DNA from: Asparagopsis taxiformis
Lineage: Eukaryota; Rhodophyta; Florideophyceae; Bonnemaisoniales; Bonnemaisoniaceae
Assembly (NCBI GenBank): GCA_030407315.1
Contig: JALQPE010001992.1
Coordinates: forward strand, 17,917-81,916
DNA: 64,000 nucleotides
Reading direction: 5' to 3'
Shown in pieces: positions 33,763 through 45,224 of this stretch (position 1 is its first letter; each line of letters begins with the position of its first letter). A program made the translations under genes and the position numbers. The notes beneath the pieces were generated by a model. It saw only the letters and a list, made by a program, of their open reading frames with translations, had not been told where the DNA came from and did not search any database.

Positions 33763-34668
33763 CTAATTACTGACGCCATCCTCGTCCGCAACGGCAAACA
33801 AGGGCCGCACTTGTCGCGCCTCTCTCACCTCGACAGCAACGTCGTAAAGTGTGGCGGCTCTGGCAACGGTTCTTTTGATATCGGCTGTGCGATACGAGTC
33901 GTAGGCGTTGCCACGATACATCTGCTCCTTACTGTCCGTGCACGGAAGTAAAGTCCACTTGGTCAATTGCTCCAGTTCAGCCAGACCTTCATCCATTTTG
34001 GAATTGTCAATAATCAGATCGTACATCAGTAGCTTGCCCATAATTTGTGAGCGCGTCGCATTCAATGGCAAGCCCATGGTTCGGAACAACATCCCCTCAA
34101 ATTCTTCATGTCGTCGACCTTGCAATGCCCAGTCAATTGCGGCCTTGAAGCCCTCCTCCGTTTTCATGGTTTCATACTCTGCATTACCGCGCTGTCTGTA
34201 AAAGAAGCTAGCGGCCGATTTGAACCACGACAAGGGTTCCCTTACACTAGCCAAGTAAATAAAATTGTTGCCATGTGTTGTGCGCAAGTTGGTGACGAGA
34301 GCATGATTTGTTTCGCTGGCATGGCAGGTCATTGTGAGCCCGCCCTTGGTTCCGACATGAGTAGCGGTGCCGTTCATGAGTGACACCTGCATCTTACAGT
34401 CGGCATTCCGACACCCGTAGGCCTCGGAGGTACGAAAGAGTATGTTGGAAATGACGGTGCTGCCAGTCTTGAACTGCTTGTTGTACAGAATGACGGGGCA
34501 TTGATTGGGTTGCACCTCGCCGAATGTGTTATTCGCTGTCAAGCTAACGGAAGTTGAAACATTGGATGAGAAGAGGACAAACACGGCCACGGCGGCGAAA
34601 AAGAGTACAACTGGGACAACACGATTGCTAGCTCTTCGTTCACTTCGGAATGCCATGGTGTCGTTCAA
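33763..34668 (-). CDS. Type II membrane sulfotransferase, tandem copy A
   Basis: 301 residues: short basic cytosolic tail, signal-anchor helix (about 17-34), stem, then a lumenal catalytic domain. KQFKTGSTVISN (64-75) is the 5'-phosphosulfate loop and YLASVREPLSWFKS (138-151) the 3'-phosphate-binding motif of PAPS-dependent carbohydrate sulfotransferases, closest in layout to galactosyl-3-O-sulfotransferases. Several Cys residues suggest disulfides. The reaction would be sulfate transfer from PAPS to a polysaccharide or glycolipid in the Golgi; in a red alga a carrageenan or agaran precursor is an obvious substrate, but this is inference. A second ATG four codons on (34656) is an alternative start. 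About two-thirds identical by eye to copy B in the core. Confidence 0.85.
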   Translation of the reverse strand: MNDTMAFRSERRASNRVVPVVLFFAAVAVFVLFSSNVSTSVSLTANNTFGEVQPNQCPVILYNKQFKTGSTVISNILFRTSEAYGCRNADCKMQVSLMNGTATHVGTKGGLTMTCHASETNHALVTNLRTTHGNNFIYLASVREPLSWFKSAASFFYRQRGNAEYETMKTEEGFKAAIDWALQGRRHEEFEGMLFRTMGLPLNATRSQIMGKLLMYDLIIDNSKMDEGLAELEQLTKWTLLPCTDSKEQMYRGNAYDSYRTADIKRTVARAATLYDVAVEVREARQVRPLFAVADEDGVSN

Positions 34669-34949
34669 GTTTGTGTGTTATCGTCGCGGCTGAAGATTTT
34701 GTACGCCGATTCGACATCGAGCGCAAGGCGGAGCTATGCGGGCGGCGCTATTTACTGGAGTCCACAACGAGTTGTGCATTGACTGAGGCCGTACAGTACT
34801 GTACGCTTTCGTCAAACATTGTCATAAGCAATCACTGAAATTGGTTTCGGCTGCAGCCGCGCAGTCCACAAGTTTGGATGCAAATTGCTGCTAATCGCAG
34901 GCGGGGCGTGTGTGGCCGATTTTACTGCTGCTGTAAAACTACTGTCAGA

Positions 34950-35840
34950 TTATTCCTTTGGAGCGAATAGCGGTCGAACGTTCCTGTCTTCAATAATTGA
35001 GGAGGCAATTTTGTAGAGCGCGCCAACCCTCTTTGTGGCTTCCTTGATGTCATCGGCGCGGTAGCTGTCGTACAATGGACCGCGATATGTCTTGCGTTTA
35101 CTGTTCGTACACGGCAACAAATGCCATTTAGTCACTTGTTCCAACTGCTTGAGGCCGTCGTCCATGTTAGCATGATCCACAATTACATCGTACATGAGCA
35201 GTTTATCGCGAATCTGCAGATCGGTTGCTGTTCGGTTCAAGCCCAATGTGCGGAACAACATGGCTTCAAAACTGCCATACGCATGCTTGCTCAACCCCCA
35301 GTCAATAGCTGCTTTGAAGCCCTCTTCTGTCCAAATGTCTAGAGGCCCCGCACCGCGTTGTCGGTAGAAAAAGGTCGCCGCCGATTTGAACCATGAAATA
35401 GGTTCTCTGACACTGGCTAAATAGATAAAATTGTTGCCGTGCGTCGCACGCAGGTTGGCAACCAATTGCTGGTTGTGCTCTCTTGCATGGCACGCCATGG
35501 TGAGGCCGCCATGAGCACCCACATGAGTGGCTGAGCCATTCATCAGTGCGACTTGCATGCTGCAATCGGCATTTCGACAGCCGTACGACTCGGACGTTCT
35601 GAACAGAACGTTGGACAGCACGGTGCTGCCAGTCTTGAACTGCTTGTTGTAGAGTATAACGGGACAGCTGGGTTTTTGGTTGTTGAGTGTGTTGTGAGCA
35701 ATGGTGCGGAATGAAGTTGTAGAGTTGGATGAGAGAAAGAAGATGAAAGCAGCGCACGCGGAGAACAAAACCAGTGTAGTTGATCGCACTGCGAACATTC
35801 TTTCCCTGAACATGGCGAAAGGGGAGGAGAGCGATTGCAT
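34950..35840 (-). CDS. Type II membrane sulfotransferase, tandem copy B
   Basis: 296 residues with the same build as copy A: signal-anchor at about 21-37, CPVILYNKQFKTGSTVLSNV (59-78) and YLASVREPISWFKSAATFFY. The stretch from CPVILYNKQFKTGST to the 3'-phosphate motif is highly conserved between the copies, while the N-terminal anchors differ. The two genes are head-to-tail, 281 bp apart, and arose by tandem duplication. The catalytic core has no frameshift or lost motif. Start at 35840; an ATG nine codons in is an alternative. Confidence 0.85.
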   Translation of the reverse strand: MQSLSSPFAMFRERMFAVRSTTLVLFSACAAFIFFLSSNSTTSFRTIAHNTLNNQKPSCPVILYNKQFKTGSTVLSNVLFRTSESYGCRNADCSMQVALMNGSATHVGAHGGLTMACHAREHNQQLVANLRATHGNNFIYLASVREPISWFKSAATFFYRQRGAGPLDIWTEEGFKAAIDWGLSKHAYGSFEAMLFRTLGLNRTATDLQIRDKLLMYDVIVDHANMDDGLKQLEQVTKWHLLPCTNSKRKTYRGPLYDSYRADDIKEATKRVGALYKIASSIIEDRNVRPLFAPKE

Positions 35841-36081
35841 GCGGCGTCGGACGATGGGGCGGCGAGGCGAGGCGAGGCGGATAATAAGCGAGCGGGTGAT
35901 TGATCGCGAGCCTGCTGGATGGCAACGTGTTAGGCAACAGGATAAGATGTCGCCGAGGAGGACACCGACACTACAAATTGTAGCAACGAATCGTACCGTG
36001 TAATGTCATTATTTTTCGGACGAGACAGTGCGGCAGCACAACTCGTACACAAATACGATCATTTGTTGGCACTACACAATT

Positions 36082-39000
36082 TTACACGTATGACTCGACA
36101 TGTACGTCAGCGCGCGATGTTTGTTTTTCTAAATTACAATTAATTGGGAAAGCTCCTCGATTCGCTTTGACCACGCTGCCGTTGCCGTGTTGCGAGCAAC
36201 GCAAATTGGTCCGGATCGCCTCAACAGCGTCAACTCGAAACTTTCCCAGCGGCACATCCGATACGTCAGTACCGAAAGGATCCGCGAGCTCCGCACTCCA
36301 TCTCTCGATACCAATCACTCCGTAAGCAATGATAACCACCCATCCAATCGTCCACCATCCACTACTTTCCACAAGCCCCAATGGCAATGTCGAAAGCCAT
36401 ATCACCATCAATATGCGAATGTGCGCAACATATCCAAAAGGCAGAGCAATCCCAATAATTCGTTCGCATTGCGCCCCATACTTCTTCAGATTACTAATCT
36501 CAAATAACAACGTCCACACAATCAACGAACTTATACCCTTGCCAACATTCTTATCCGCCTCCGTCAGATACGCCCGAATCACATCAATGCAATAGTCACC
36601 GCGTTCCGTCACTCGCTCGATTCGAGCAATATCTTCACCATTCATCACATCCTTCAGCTCCTCCGCACACGACCGCTCCCGCCGAAGCCGAGCCGCCGTC
36701 ACAATGGAGAATCCCGCCAGATGAGCCCCAATTCTTTCCAAGTCCCCTCTGTGAATCATACCAGCCGCAAACACCTCAAAGATTCGATTGCTCAAAAGTA
36801 TCGTATCACTCAGAATCTTATCCCTCCACGCCTCCACAGCACTCACATACCTCCCATGACTGTCATATAAACGAAATCCTAGCAGAACGAACAGTGCAAA
36901 CCCAACATACTCCTTCACGACTCCATCAATCGCAATGGGAGAGCAGAAAGCTGGGCTACACGACTCATTCAATGGCCACTTCTGACTCAGACCCCACGCC
37001 AGAAGCACCAAAACAGCACAGTATACGCCAACTCCAATCACCATCCATAGAGGCACAGCGTGTGCAATCATTGACAGAAAAGACAGTACAGAGCGCGGTT
37101 CAATTGCCTTTCTTCCATCATCACCAAGAGTCGCATATATCGACTCACAATCTTCTTCCAACTTTTCCCAAGCCTTCCCAGAATACTCTACGCTTTTTAC
37201 GACAAGAGTTTCACATCCACGACGGTAATTCTGCCTCACAAACAGAATTTCAGAAACAATTATATTCGCCATCTTGTCCAAGTCAAAGTCATTCAAATCC
37301 CTTCCGAATGGCTGTTGAATTTCTTCTGCAACAGAATACATTCTGTGGCATGTTAAAAGTTCACATAAAGTCAGCGCTCCTCTTATACAAGTTTCAAACA
37401 TCTCCGCTATGCAGTTAGCTTACCCAAGAAGTCCATATCCGATCAGAGGAACCCATAGAATTGAAAACCACCCTACACAGAACACAGCGTTAATGGAAAA
37501 CAGATTGACAAAGTTAAAATCTCTGTCAAGTTGTCATTTTGCGCGCCCAGTTCAATTAAGTTCAGAGAACATACCGTTTGATTCAGTCAGTACGAAGGGA
37601 ACGAAGATGAACCATAAGCCTATCAATGCGCGGAGTAAAATCATGAAACCACGAGCAATGGGAAATGATTTCAGGAATTTGCTCTGTCGTACCGATTCCT
37701 GAAGGTTTTCAATCTCGAACTTCACGTGCGCTGATCTATTGCCAGAAATCTTCGCAGAAGGACTAGAAAAATGCTCCGGACGACAGATTCCAGATATGTA
37801 GTAAGCTCTGATCACATCAATACAATAGTCGGACATACTGTTTGCGGTCAAAATTCGGCCAATATCGTCTTCGGACAACAAACCCTTTAGCTCTCTTAGA
37901 TCCCTCTCATTTCTCAGCTCCATCTTCAGAGCAATGGGAAAACTCGCAAGATGCGCAAGCACACGATCAGTGTCTCCTTCATGCCAGCTTCCTGACCTTT
38001 CCAAAAGTATCCACTGTACAGCTAGTGAGTGGCATGCTGCTCGTATATCATCGCCCCATACATTTCCAGCTTCAGAATACCTGTCGAATGCGGCTTGCAC
38101 GTAAAAGCCGAGAAGCAAAAAGGCTGAGTACAAAATTCAATGGAACGCCAAGTAAACTTCGTGGTTAGCCAAAATGTGGTAAATGCAACTCACGATAAAA
38201 GGTGCTAACAAATAATTCCTACCTGGAAACCCGACGTATGTCACAAAGACACCATCAATTGATAGGCTTGACTCCCACCATCTTACGTTTTCCGTTTCCG
38301 TTCTTGACAAATACGAAATCACGACACCCACAGCTGCCCATACAGAAATAAACAAAAGAGCCCACCACGGGACACTGCGTGCCATGTGAGCAAAAAGGGA
38401 CGGCTTGATCATCCCCTTTTTCGGGCCATTGAAATTCGCGATAGGTTTCTCAGCAAAGTTACTCGCGTCGACTTCATCTTCAGTAAACGATGGTAAGCTA
38501 TATTGGTCTCTGATTCCCATCCCATCCAAGCAAGTCCCGATGCGAGCTTCACTATCAACTGGTGATTCCTTAATATGATGTTTGTAATCCCATTTCGTAG
38601 ACCTCACGGCCTCGATTAATCTTTCAACCATCCCTGTCAAAATTTTGTTGACCGGTATATCGAGCTCGTCGTCGCCTAACGGATCTACCAATGTTGTAGC
38701 AAGAAACTCCAGAGCAAGAATTCCGTATGAAATCAGAGGTGCCCATAATATAGTGAAGAACCCGGTGCGGGCAGTCATTCCAAGGGGCAGAAGAATCAAC
38801 CAAAGAATTGTGAAAAGCTTCTGATGATTAGTGTAACTTCTTATGACCGGACACTTTTTTATAAACCGCAACTGGCTCACAATGTTTCCAACGTTGTAGC
38901 ACTGATTAAACAATTGGAAGATCACCACACCTCCTGGGATATGTTTTTTCTTCATCATTTCTAGGCCTGACTCTTTCTTCGGCACATCGACTGTCAGCAG

Positions 39001-41802
39001 ATAAGCCTCCCAAGTCTGAATACAATATCGTATGGGATCTGGACTTTTAACACATTTTTCGTAGTCCTCGTCTGAAAGAAGTCGCTCGTCATCGCATTGA
39101 TTGGTACCCAAAAGCTCATCCCTTAACAAAAGAGGAATTTGCATCAAGTGGGAAATAAACCTGGGTTTGTCACCTTTATGCCATACTCCATCTTGATATC
39201 CATTTGTAATTTCCATGATGCTCGCCCGCAGTTCCATTTCGAGCTTTGAGATCAACGACCCTGAATTCTGATACCTCCTCATAGCATCTGAAGCTCGGAA
39301 AGACAGAATCAGGAATAGTGCAAATCCTGTCTCTAGCAGAATATTCTGGTCGACATCAATCGGACTGCACCACTTACGACATCCTGTATTCCTGCGTTCG
39401 TCATCCCATGTGAAAGAAAGGCCGTAGGATATGAATACTTCAGAAACTATCCATGTTGTTACCACAATCTGGCTAATCCATGGAACTGGTGGCAGGTGTG
39501 AGAGGATTTTCTCGATAAATTGTTTCAATGTCATATGCGATGTATGAGATTCCTCTTTTTGTTGGCGTCGAGAAAAGGATATATTAAACCGTTCTTCATA
39601 GCCAATGGATTCATGGAGGAATCCTATTGGCCCATTACGTGTATCTTTGTAGATTTCGTGCACCAAGACCTTGATCTCAGCACAAAACTTATCCAGACGA
39701 ATATCATTTGGATCAGTGCCGAATGGGTCCGACAAGTCTTGACCCATTACAAGAAGCTTCACAATGGAATATGCAATCGGAGGTAGGTAGAGGTATGAAA
39801 AAAAACCGTTTTGCTGTACGAACGCCAATGGTAGTAATGCAAGCCATATTACAGAGAATACCTGGAGATGGAGGGTAAATGATGGTGAGATCGGAACCTC
39901 TTGCATTGTGATGCATTCATTAATTGCGTTCTCAATACGATAAAAGTGGAAAAACATGAAGAGGAGAGAATTATCAAGAGGACGTTTTCCTGATAAGACG
40001 ACGTCCTTATCCCGTCGGTCCATACTTGAAATGTATCCATACAAGACACGGAAACAGTAGTCTAGAAGGTGTTTCGACTCCGACATGGCCTGGATGTCAT
40101 CAGGGGCCAGAATAGCTTCAAACTCTGAGAGATCACGTTGTTCTTGAAGTTTCTGTTTGCCTGCATACGCCATCGCCACAATGTGCGAAAAGAGACGCTC
40201 AATATCTCTATTGTGCCATGTTCCGTTCTTACACATGATGCCTATTCGAGTAGATACCGTTGTTATAACGGATTTCAAAGTTGATTCCCATATTTCCAAA
40301 CCCGTAGAATATCGAGTGTAGGCATCATTGAACCAGAAGCCCATAAGGAGGAACACTCCAAGTCCAACATACGATGTTGTTGAAACGCTCAAGGGCACGT
40401 AGAGACACCACCAGCGACAGCCTGGCTCGGGGCTTGCCTCTGATATTCCACGAGTTAGAAATACAATGAAAGATAACCACACAAGGAACACAAGCAAAGG
40501 CAACAAAATCTTGTTCTTGAAGGAAATGAATAGACTTCTTTTGAAATATGTGATACCTGATTCATCGTTGAGTTGCTCTTTATACCGTAGTTCGTTTTCC
40601 AACCAGTGAGGCGTGTCATGGTCAATCTTGACAACATCAGGAAGCAATCGTTCTTCATGATACATGTCCAGGAAGCGTAGGGAATCTATACTGGCCAGTC
40701 TATTCAACTTGATATCTTGTATATCGAAACCAAAGGGCTCATTGAGAGCGTTAGCAACTTCGAAAAGCATACCGACTCCATAGGAAATGAGAATGGCCCA
40801 CATAGGAGTGAACCTGGAGAACAGGAATTCATAATGAGCACACAATAATGTGTCAGATGATGAACGACAAAAAGAGCATCGAAAATAATGAACGACTTAC
40901 CATCCACTAGTTTCGACTAAGGCAAGTGGTAAGAAGACGAGCCAAATGTAAAGGAAAATACGAAGGTGATTGACATAACCTAGAGCGGGTTGGAATTCTG
41001 CGATGCGAGTAATGGTAGCCGTTATATTGTCAATGGCATCGACGGTAATGACTTGGGAACACTTTGAGCAAGGACCTGCTGTAGAGGGACAAGCAGGCTG
41101 AAATCCTGTCTTGACCTCGTTTTCTGCACACGAAAAGTAACCTCTGATAACACGAATACAATGAATATGCATCTGTTGTGATTGAATAACATCGTCAACA
41201 TCAAGCGGATCTAGTATAGTACTAAGTTGCTCTGGTTCTCTCTCGTGGCGAATCATCATTTTCAAGGCGATAGGATAGGCCATAAAGTGTGCAATAATCC
41301 TATCTTGATCATTTTGATGCCAAAGCCCCCTAGTAAACACCTGAACCAACACGCGGATAGTTATCCTGGCTTGGGCCATTGACTGATTCCAAGCTGTATG
41401 AGCTGCACGATGACGACTGGAGGCCTCCCTAATGAAGAAACCTAGGAGTACGAACAAGGCCCAGCCGACTCCATAGACAACAGATGAGGAAATGAGAAAG
41501 CTAGATGTCCAGAACGGGACGGAAAGCGAGGTGAAACTTCGATCAGCGAAAGCATATGCTATCATCATAACAGCGGAAGACCAGAAGGCTTCGACGACAA
41601 GCATGCACCACGGTATTGTCTTGAGTACGATGCGAAGCGGTGTCACTGCTGAAGGCGGCAGCTCGGCAGGGCCGGATCCCAGAACGCCCGTTGTGGCGGC
41701 ATTAGCCAAGAATTTGGCTGCGGATGCATAGCCGGGAGAGCGGTATAACGGGGCGGACTCTGCCGGAGCTTCAAGATCGAGGATTGGGGTTGGAAGCGGC
41801 AT
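36082..41802 (-). CDS. Five-domain bestrophin: putative single-chain pentameric anion channel, five exons
   Basis: Exons 41802-40901, 40813-38223, 38123-37575, 37472-37424 and 37342-36082 join at GT/AG sites (introns 87, 99, 102 and 81 nt). They total 5352 nt, exactly 1784 codons with stop: 1783 residues. Five divergent copies of the bestrophin (RFP-TM/UPF0187) domain follow each other, each with about four membrane helices. The TM2 signature recurs with its Phe at residues 122, 460, 806, 1171 and 1520 (LLGF..., LMGF, ILSF, LLGF, LLGF), each followed by R[HY]. The post-TM4 motif [DEQ]P[FL]G.D..D recurs near 327, 663, 1011, 1375 and 1717. Repeat spacing is 335-365 residues. Bestrophins are normally homopentameric chloride/bicarbonate channels, so one chain holds a full ring. 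Splice junctions fall inside domains, so these are not separate genes. The ATG follows TTCCAG, so an additional upstream exon cannot be excluded. Membrane location (plasma, plastid or other) is unknown. Confidence 0.88.
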
Positions 41803-42742: not shown

Positions 42743-43401
42743 TGTCATACCACGCGGTGGTCTGCCCTGGTGGGGTCGTGTCAACATCCTATTGGATGAC
42801 CCCGGGTCGGGACTGACCAATAGAAACAGCCTCGCTGTATCTCGCCCAAGTCAAGGGAATGGACCCACTGGGACAATTAAAGACCCCACAAGGGGCAAAT
42901 TTTAACTAAGCTGACTCAGCTAACTTTACACTGTAACATTAACAGTTGGTGATCTCGCAGGCTTCCGCAGTCGCCATAATCAGGGATCTGATTGGTGCAC
43001 ATAAGGATATTTATTCCTAACTGTCTACCTACCCTAACTGTTTACAGTAACTTAGACTAGTATAAAACGCCTCTGGATTAGCCAGAGTGCTTAACCTTTT
43101 AGAGGTAACGTAAACTCACGTGGAATTTACGACTCCACTGAACAGTGTTTGCATTGCTCTATTCCATCCTTCCAGGACGAATTAGCTTTAGCTATACAGC
43201 TCGACGGGTTACGTCTTTCGCTCCATCAATACGCACTTCGTGCGTGAGCACCCCCAACCTTCACCCGGCATTACCGGAAGACCTTTCGTGGTATACACGC
43301 CATTGGCGGTTGACGCAAGATTCGCTTGCTCTACCACGCTACCGAAGCTCGGGACACCTGTAGGGTGGTTTTGCCGCTTTGCGGATTTTCTACCTACTAC
43401 A
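42743..43401 (+). mobile_element. 5' LTR (659 bp) of the outer element
   Basis: Runs from TGTCATACCAC to CCTACTACA, TG...CA ended, and matches the LTR at 15800-16457. The next bases are the primer-binding site. Confidence 0.9.
43061..43067 (+). promoter_or_regulatory. TATA box in the outer LTR
   Basis: TATAAAA in the context ACTAGTATAAAACGCCTCTG; the corresponding TATAAAA is at 16118-16124 in the other LTR. It is the likely promoter for the genomic transcript. Confidence 0.6.
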
Positions 43402-43402
43402 T

Positions 43403-43419
43403 TGGTCTCTCGACCTAGA
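43403..43419 (+). other. Primer-binding site of the outer element
   Basis: TGGTCTCTCGACCTAGA begins one base after the LTR, with the TGG expected to pair with a tRNA CCA end. The identical 17-mer serves the inner element. I could not name the tRNA. Confidence 0.75.
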
Positions 43420-43517
43420 ATCTTACCGACATCTTAGCCGACCGGCGACACACCGAAACCACTCAAGAAGAGTAAACTAGTCGTGAGACGTGAGCTCATT
43501 GAACAAGAGTAGAAGTG

Positions 43518-44564
43518 ATGCCATCGGACAAGTCTCCGGAATATTCTGACTCCGAGTCAGGCCCTAACGGGGGAGGTTCAAACGAAGAATTCGTCACTGA
43601 GGAAGGAGTCTTCCGACTTATGCATGAACATGCAGACAAGATTCTCAATGATAAATTGAAAGAGATGCGCGACGAGATCAGCCAAGCTGTTGAGGACACC
43701 CTCGATGATAGACACGGCGATCTCGGCTCAACTCTCGTGGATCACACGATTGATTTGCTTGCACCCAAGCTGAAAGCCATTTGCCACGAAGTGGGAGATG
43801 AGAAAGAAGTAGAAGTCTTCTCGGGGACGTGGAAGTCTATCCGTGTGGATTTTCTACAACGGGTTATCCGGCTTGAGAAGAAGGTCACCGACCTACAAAG
43901 GAGAAGCTACGCTAGTTCTTCTTCCGATCATCAGCACCAAGGGCTGTGGAATCAACAAGACGGCACTGCCGAGAACAGCGTAGCTGTGGAAGCCGAGAAG
44001 CTCGACAAAGTCGTTGACGTCACCAGACGTTTGTCGGATCGAGTGGATTTACTCAGCGAGTCTCTCGCCCGTCCGGTACCAAGTCGAAATCCCAACGTGA
44101 GTGACCCAGTCTTTGGGTTTGGTGATACACCTTCGAATCCATTCGAAACAGAAGAAGGACCCTTGGAACCAGGCTTAACTCCTTTAAGAGCCCGCGAACC
44201 CGCGTTCGATCGTGTAGTATCCTACCGGTATTACCGGTTACAAGACAAGTCGTCATCGACAGAAGCTCCGAACGGAAAGAGTAGAAGTCTCTACAAGATA
44301 ACGGAAAAGATCCGGAACTTCAATGCGTCCTTGACGCCGTTCAATGGAACGCAATCCATCGATATACTTCGATTCCTTGCGGAGTACCAAGATGCTTGTG
44401 ACTCCTGCGGAGTATCAGAAGGAATAGCAACAAAGTTGCTACGTTATTTCCTTGAAGGAGATGCGCAACGATTCATCGCGTCCGAATCTCGGAAAAGGAA
44501 GTTGCTAAATCAACTGCACCAGCAGATAACGTGGCCACAGGCCGTCCATGCTTTACTTTCTCGT
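43518..44564 (+). pseudogene. Outer element gag, N-terminal part (split by insertion)
   Basis: 349 codons from the ATG at 43518 (an in-frame GTG precedes it). The N-terminus is acidic and Ser-rich, followed by coiled-coil segments (about 30-70 and 110-135) and the capsid-like region starting near residue 260 (FNGTQSIDILRFLAEYQDAC). The frame is cut after codon 349 by the inner LTR; the few further in-frame codons to 44660 belong to the LTR. The frame resumes exactly at 55440. Confidence 0.85.
44560..44564 (+). other. Target-site duplication, left copy (CTCGT)
   Basis: CTCGT precedes the inner element and recurs at 55435-55439. Removing the element and one copy restores the outer gag frame. 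Confidence 0.95.
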
Positions 44565-45224
44565 TGTGGAACCACGTTAGTTCTAGAAGTAGCTGGTACG
44601 AGCCACGGACACGCTGTCCTTAACGAAACGAAACGAGCAGTCCACCCGCTGGTGTTTTGACTGTATTGTTAGGTAGGAAGGTAGAGTGGTTAGCGAGTAG
44701 ACACGAGCGTCACGACGCAACAATCCACGCGAGGATTACGTTAGCACACGAGGTGGTACGTCACCGGAGGCGCTCTCGACCAAGCCCGGAGGCACTACAC
44801 GCAATCAGCCTTACGTGCGGCGATGGGTAGGGAGTACGCAGCTCGACGGAGACGAAGCCTCGTTAGGCAAAACGTAAACGTAAACGTAGAAGTCAGTCGT
44901 AGACTAGAGCCGTTGCTCGATCGTTGTCTTGTCCCCTTTCCCTCCCGGCACGATGCCAATACCTATATGGCCACGATGGCATCGCTTTACAGTGTAAACA
45001 CTGTTCGTAACGTCCCCGAATGGGAAAGGACCTTGTGGGTCACACGTAGGGACCCGTTGGTCCGTTGGCCGTTGCCAATACGTTCGTTGCACACGTGTGC
45101 AGGTTGCGCGCGCGCATGCGCCAGCAATGTTCGTTCATTGCTGTCGCCGGTCGTATCCGCCGAGATTCGAATTCCGCGGAAAAACGTAAATATTTGCAAT
45201 TTCGGAATTGCCACGTATACTACA
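44565..45224 (-). mobile_element. 3' LTR (660 bp) of the inner element
   Basis: Read on the minus strand it begins TGTAGTATACGTGGC and ends TTCCACA. It is one base longer than the other LTR (CCTTAACG versus CCTTACG). Confidence 0.95.

Follow-up and report, generated by a model that had tools for sequence, protein, structure and literature searches.

Can a single polypeptide supply all five positions of a bestrophin ring? The question is raised by a gene of the red alga Asparagopsis taxiformis, which lies in a stretch of 64,000 nucleotides (nt) of contig JALQPE010001992.1 (assembly GCA_030407315.1, positions 17,917–81,916; hereafter the window). Rebuilt from the DNA, this is a five-exon gene on the minus strand (41802–36082), with a coding sequence of 5352 nt for 1783 residues and its sole stop at the end. 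The protein, P0001, carries five different bestrophin domains, D1 to D5. We consider it likely that this chain folds alone into a complete five-fold bestrophin ring, with a permanently asymmetric pore.

Five bestrophin domains in one coding sequence

Introns 1–4 (87, 99, 102, and 81 bp) all have GT..AG boundaries, and the rebuilt model is the same as that of a preliminary description of this DNA, which had joined five exons at GT/AG sites into one uninterrupted frame of 1783 residues. An alternative, later AG for intron 4 was ruled out, as it yields 29 stops. Pfam identifies five Bestrophin_2 (PF25539) stretches in the protein (512 bits, E 5.3e-154; cut-off 27 bits). A six-frame search of the whole genome with this profile gives exactly five matches on the window contig, corresponding to D1–D5 and each above the cut-off, which bears out the earlier count of five repeats; there is no sixth match on the contig. 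The family had been named differently: PF01062, the animal-type bestrophin family first proposed, scores 8.9 bits where its cut-off is 24.2, and the actual family is PF25539, of the bacterial/fungal type. The PF01062 profile finds zero matches in the genome and likewise zero in 14 control genomes, so that search is uninformative.

The repeats are regularly spaced, as had been claimed. The [DEQ]P[FL]G.D..D motif starts at residues 326, 663, 1011, 1374, and 1718, at intervals of 337–363 residues, and the phenylalanines of the second transmembrane helix (TM2) are exactly at 122, 460, 806, 1171, and 1520. D1, D3, D4, and D5 are each 24–26% identical to D2, such that one coding sequence holds five non-identical domains. 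The five-repeat observation is confirmed as real and far beyond chance.

Since the window gene depends on four introns, its architecture could in principle reflect five adjacent single-domain genes wrongly joined in prediction or assembly. However, exon 2 by itself is a stop-free frame that runs from the D1 tail through D2 and D3 to the start of D4, and in a paralogue on contig C1040 the D1 tail and D2–D5 lie within a single 1562-codon open frame. Predicted proteins from other sources span either the D1 tail to D5 or D1 to D5, and the same architecture is annotated in Gracilariopsis chorda, Gracilaria domingensis, and Agarophyton chilense (all Gracilariales, Florideophyceae). A mis-join is refuted for the family as a whole, and we give this explanation almost no credence.

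The assembly (141 Mb, 3156 contigs) contains 87 PF25539 matches by six-frame search. Eight complete loci, including that of the window, were modelled; they encode proteins of 1772–1824 residues with five domains in every case, the seven paralogues being 54–76% identical to the window protein. A 49-nt exon, like the one within D4 of the window gene, also appears in the models of four paralogues (L023, L024, L030, and L034). All seven paralogue models are automatic, and two of their introns are doubtful (intron 3 of L025, 218 bp with donor GTCGAT, and the intron of L021, with donor GTTCGT); the domain counts are independent of both. The five-domain bestrophin is a multigene family, not a single gene.

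The remaining loci fetched include near-identical copies of modelled genes and broken or partial ones. L032 (C2664) is a 99.3–99.6% identical copy of the window locus with a disrupted D5 (a net deletion of ∼43 bp and a frame change, relative to window positions 36930–36956), either an allele or an assembly error. Another five-domain gene, on C2798 (L026, L027, and L028), is dispersed in pieces over more than 20 kb; its breaks within D2 and D3 look like the work of large insertions. Broken repeat fragments on C2727 (L038) and C967 (L040) are 92–93% identical to the L034 gene, and C1718, C1719, C1727, C1728, and C2296 each have a match equal in length and score to that on C967; fragments of this type are perhaps relics carried by some repeat. 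L035 (C2259), assembled from two loosely joined pieces, is a single-domain bestrophin that clusters with a cyanobacterial one (support 92), so the alga seems to retain an ordinary bestrophin alongside the five-domain family.

Conservation and origin of the repeats

A full-length search returned 17 homologues, seven of them with five substantial domains (P0002–P0007 and P0013), although some of D5 is missing from P0003, some of D2 from P0005, and the start of D1 from P0006. Of the other ten, five span the D1 tail to D5 and five end inside D4. Pfam detects five stretches in all five homologues scanned. With position-specific profiles, to which 15 of the homologues had themselves contributed, the order D1–D5 is kept in 67 of 67 homologues as far as each extends, and no sixth domain is found in any of the 67. 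Twelve have pieces of all five domains and 55 are partial frames. Intron 1 falls at D1 profile position 258 and intron 2 at D4 position 66/67; 25 homologue frames begin and 23 finish at or close to the place of intron 1, and 26 finish at or close to that of intron 2. Because the frame ends cluster there, introns 1 and 2 look shared. P0008 (GEZJ01002761.1, a transcript-style name whose prefix we take to denote a transcriptome assembly) runs from D1 into D4 before an apparent frame change. Database names of members include “Bestrophin/UPF0187” and “hypothetical protein.” One Gracilaria domingensis “bestrophin,” P0066 (567 residues), consists of two thirds of D2 plus D3 and is probably a split gene model.

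A tree was built from 23 proteins yielding 101 repeats (those under 230 profile positions were excluded), together with four bacterial single-domain sequences and one from the same genome. Every position is monophyletic (support 93 for D1 and 100 for each of D2–D5), D1 and D4 are sister clades (100), and all repeats cluster apart from the single-domain sequences (78). In an earlier, discarded tree, in which one bacterial outgroup was misframed (branch 5.28), the positions were also monophyletic (84–100; FastTree 0.89–1.0) and the repeats did not group together. With a separate clade for every position, the five-domain chain is older than these genes, and internal duplication ahead of their divergence is the most likely origin of the repeats.

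Between the window gene and its paralogue L025, the ratio of nonsynonymous to synonymous substitution rates (dN/dS) is 0.12, 0.11, 0.10, 0.15, and 0.15 for D1 to D5, values that are rough with dS near or above 1 (0.9–1.3). Purifying selection acts on each of the five domains, and none is decaying. Constraint extends to a linker of 43 codons that joins D3 to D4 (dN/dS 0.19), which argues against a polyprotein whose cleavage releases five different subunits to build a heteropentamer. The domains are divergent enough to be distinct subunits, and low-confidence stretches in the modelled linkers (see below) would leave room for cleavage; however, separate subunits have no need of the invariant domain order. 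We regard cleavage as quite unlikely.

Pore residues and the proposed ring

Alignment with KpBest gives the three neck rings of the window protein, from D1 to D5, as W/L/F/F/F, V/L/L/L/V, and F in all five. The hydrophobic character earlier ascribed to all three neck positions in each repeat thus holds. These positions correspond to I62/I66/F70 of KpBest and I76/F80/F84 of BEST1 (PMC8496536). Residues were counted over 23 proteins and 101 repeats (eight models from this genome plus 15 proteins from the set of 67 homologues); the counts are not independent because 8 of the 23 proteins come from one genome and 4 from Agarophyton chilense. The first ring is position specific: W in 18/19 D1, L in 21/22 D2, F in 22/23 D3, F in 18/19 D4, and F in 17/18 D5 repeats. 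The third ring is F in 95 of the 101 repeats. Arginine directly follows this ring in KpBest and in each of the five single-domain sequences compared; among the repeats, it holds that place in D3 (22/23) and D5 (16/18). Elsewhere the residue there is aromatic: F in 15 and Y in 1 of 19 D1, W in 22/22 D2, and F in 10 and Y in 9 of 19 D4 repeats.

In BEST1, the side chains of D301 and D304 are the ones that bind the ion in the calcium clasp, a feature absent from KpBest (PMC8496536). Aligned with the clasp by equal spacing, the repeat motif (DPFG.D..D) provides aspartate at the D301-equivalent place in 93 and at the D304-equivalent place in 97 of 101 repeats, and every repeat of the window protein has both. 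In the five single-domain sequences, the first place is taken by E, N, Q, S, and E and the second by D, D, D, D, and S; KpBest has alanine at the first. The Asp pair is a lead for calcium binding, short of proof.

For stretches of two and three domains, AlphaFold2 models reach a predicted template modelling score (pTM) of 0.84, with low-confidence stretches in the linkers, and the modelled single domains match KpBest, i.e., the bestrophin fold. Both ends of a bestrophin subunit are cytosolic. Given four transmembrane helices per subunit (PMC8496536), such domains can be linked without extra helices, and short linkers would connect neighbours. Each domain would replace one subunit of the ring, the domains being arranged around it in chain order with D5 closing on D1, and the five TM2 helices would together form one hydrophobic neck. 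With the five positions fixed in the chain and diverged, the pore would be permanently asymmetric, and this fixed arrangement would allow the positions to specialise. We find fairly probable a covalent pseudo-pentamer in which the W-L-F-F-F neck is asymmetric, only two of the five positions keep the basic ring below it, and each domain has a potential Asp clasp pair; the five non-equivalent gates and sensors would evolve independently, as in four-domain Na+ and Ca2+ channels. By analogy with its family, our guess is that it may be a channel for small anions (Cl−, HCO3−), in either the plasma membrane or an internal one.

Several observations weigh against a single-chain ring. The models cover stretches of up to three domains, within D1–D3, and the 72° arrangement of a closed ring is a prediction. 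The window gene is known here from DNA alone, and the transcript-like P0008 departs from the expected sequence late in D4. The dN/dS values are imprecise, as stated, and the neck pattern has exceptions, such as the one D1 repeat in 19 without tryptophan. The middle ring, V/L/L/L/V, is more like I66 of the Na+ channel KpBest than F80 of animal BEST1 (PMC8496536), and selectivity is unreadable from it; alignment of the repeats to the aperture (I180 of KpBest) is unreliable.

Because the models stop short of ring closure, the chains might instead oligomerise, whether domain swapped or with several chains per channel, a behaviour sometimes met in concatemers engineered from other channels. However, the five domains of each complete gene equal the bestrophin subunit number (as given in PMC8496536), which best fits one chain per ring, and we think oligomerisation unlikely. 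Considered together, the domain count, orthologous positions, constraint, confident multi-domain models, and hydrophobic necks support the single-chain pseudo-pentamer of the preliminary description; its ring closure and conduction are parts that we infer.

Locus features and relation to known channels

Exons and bestrophin domains of the five-domain gene (window coordinates)
Feature	Position	Strand	Content
Exon 1	40901..41802	-	Start codon, N-terminal tail, most of D1
Exon 2	38223..40813	-	D1 end, complete D2 and D3, D4 start
Exon 3	37575..38123	-	D4 middle
Exon 4	37424..37472	-	49-nt micro-exon within D4
Exon 5	36082..37342	-	D4 end, complete D5, stop codon
D1 bestrophin domain	40588..41679	-	Residues 42-376; contains intron 1
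D2 bestrophin domain	39565..40596	-	Residues 374-717; fold also modelled
D3 bestrophin domain	38563..39549	-	Residues 723-1051; fold also modelled
D4 bestrophin domain	37153..38451	-	Residues 1089-1427; contains introns 2-4
D5 bestrophin domain	36121..37152	-	Residues 1428-1771

The gene is flanked by high-copy DNA (42743–43500), 0.9 kb upstream of its start codon, which has at least 40 further matches, nearly all of those listed being 94–100% identical; this is perhaps the end of a retroelement. An adjoining 385-codon frame (43503–44660) has no Pfam match. On the other side, two adjacent frames (33763–36005) show weak matches to the galactose-3-O-sulfotransferase family PF06990 (E 6e-4 and 3e-4, below cut-off) and, on that resemblance, may serve sulfated wall galactans.

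KpBest and other bacterial/fungal-type PF25539 proteins share the fold of the modelled domains, and the repeat profile can be aligned with KpBest through the neck. In contrast to the five different domains in one chain found here, KpBest has one domain per chain and is a homopentamer (PMC8496536). Animal BEST1–4 (PF01062) are also pentamers with a hydrophobic TM2 neck, and their clasp Asp pair has counterparts in all five repeats, but they are homo-oligomers with Phe in the middle neck ring (PMC8496536), and their family has no above-cut-off match in the window protein. Plant VCCN1-type bestrophins (7ek1-3) have a single domain. In bestrhodopsins (7pl9), which are rhodopsin–bestrophin fusions, a bestrophin likewise lies inside a long fused algal chain, but each chain has a single bestrophin match and the entry comprises five chains; a title cited in PMC11453091 calls them “pentameric.” A diatom study (PMC11142338) reports that red algae have bestrophin homologues but none orthologous to its BST clade.

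Among the titles and abstract openings listed from the open-licence literature, we found no description of a chain with several bestrophin domains. To our knowledge, there is no earlier single-chain example for any pentameric channel. The merging of tetramer subunits into one chain in four-domain Na+ and Ca2+ channels was pivotal for signalling by these two ions; those channels resemble the present protein in joining ring subunits in one chain, but are pseudo-tetramers of an unrelated family. If the proposed ring is correct, the subunit-fusion step of tetrameric channels would have been repeated in another symmetry. The red algal protein would then be a natural concatemer in which each position can be mutated alone, giving access to per-subunit roles in gating and selectivity that are hard to reach in homopentamers.
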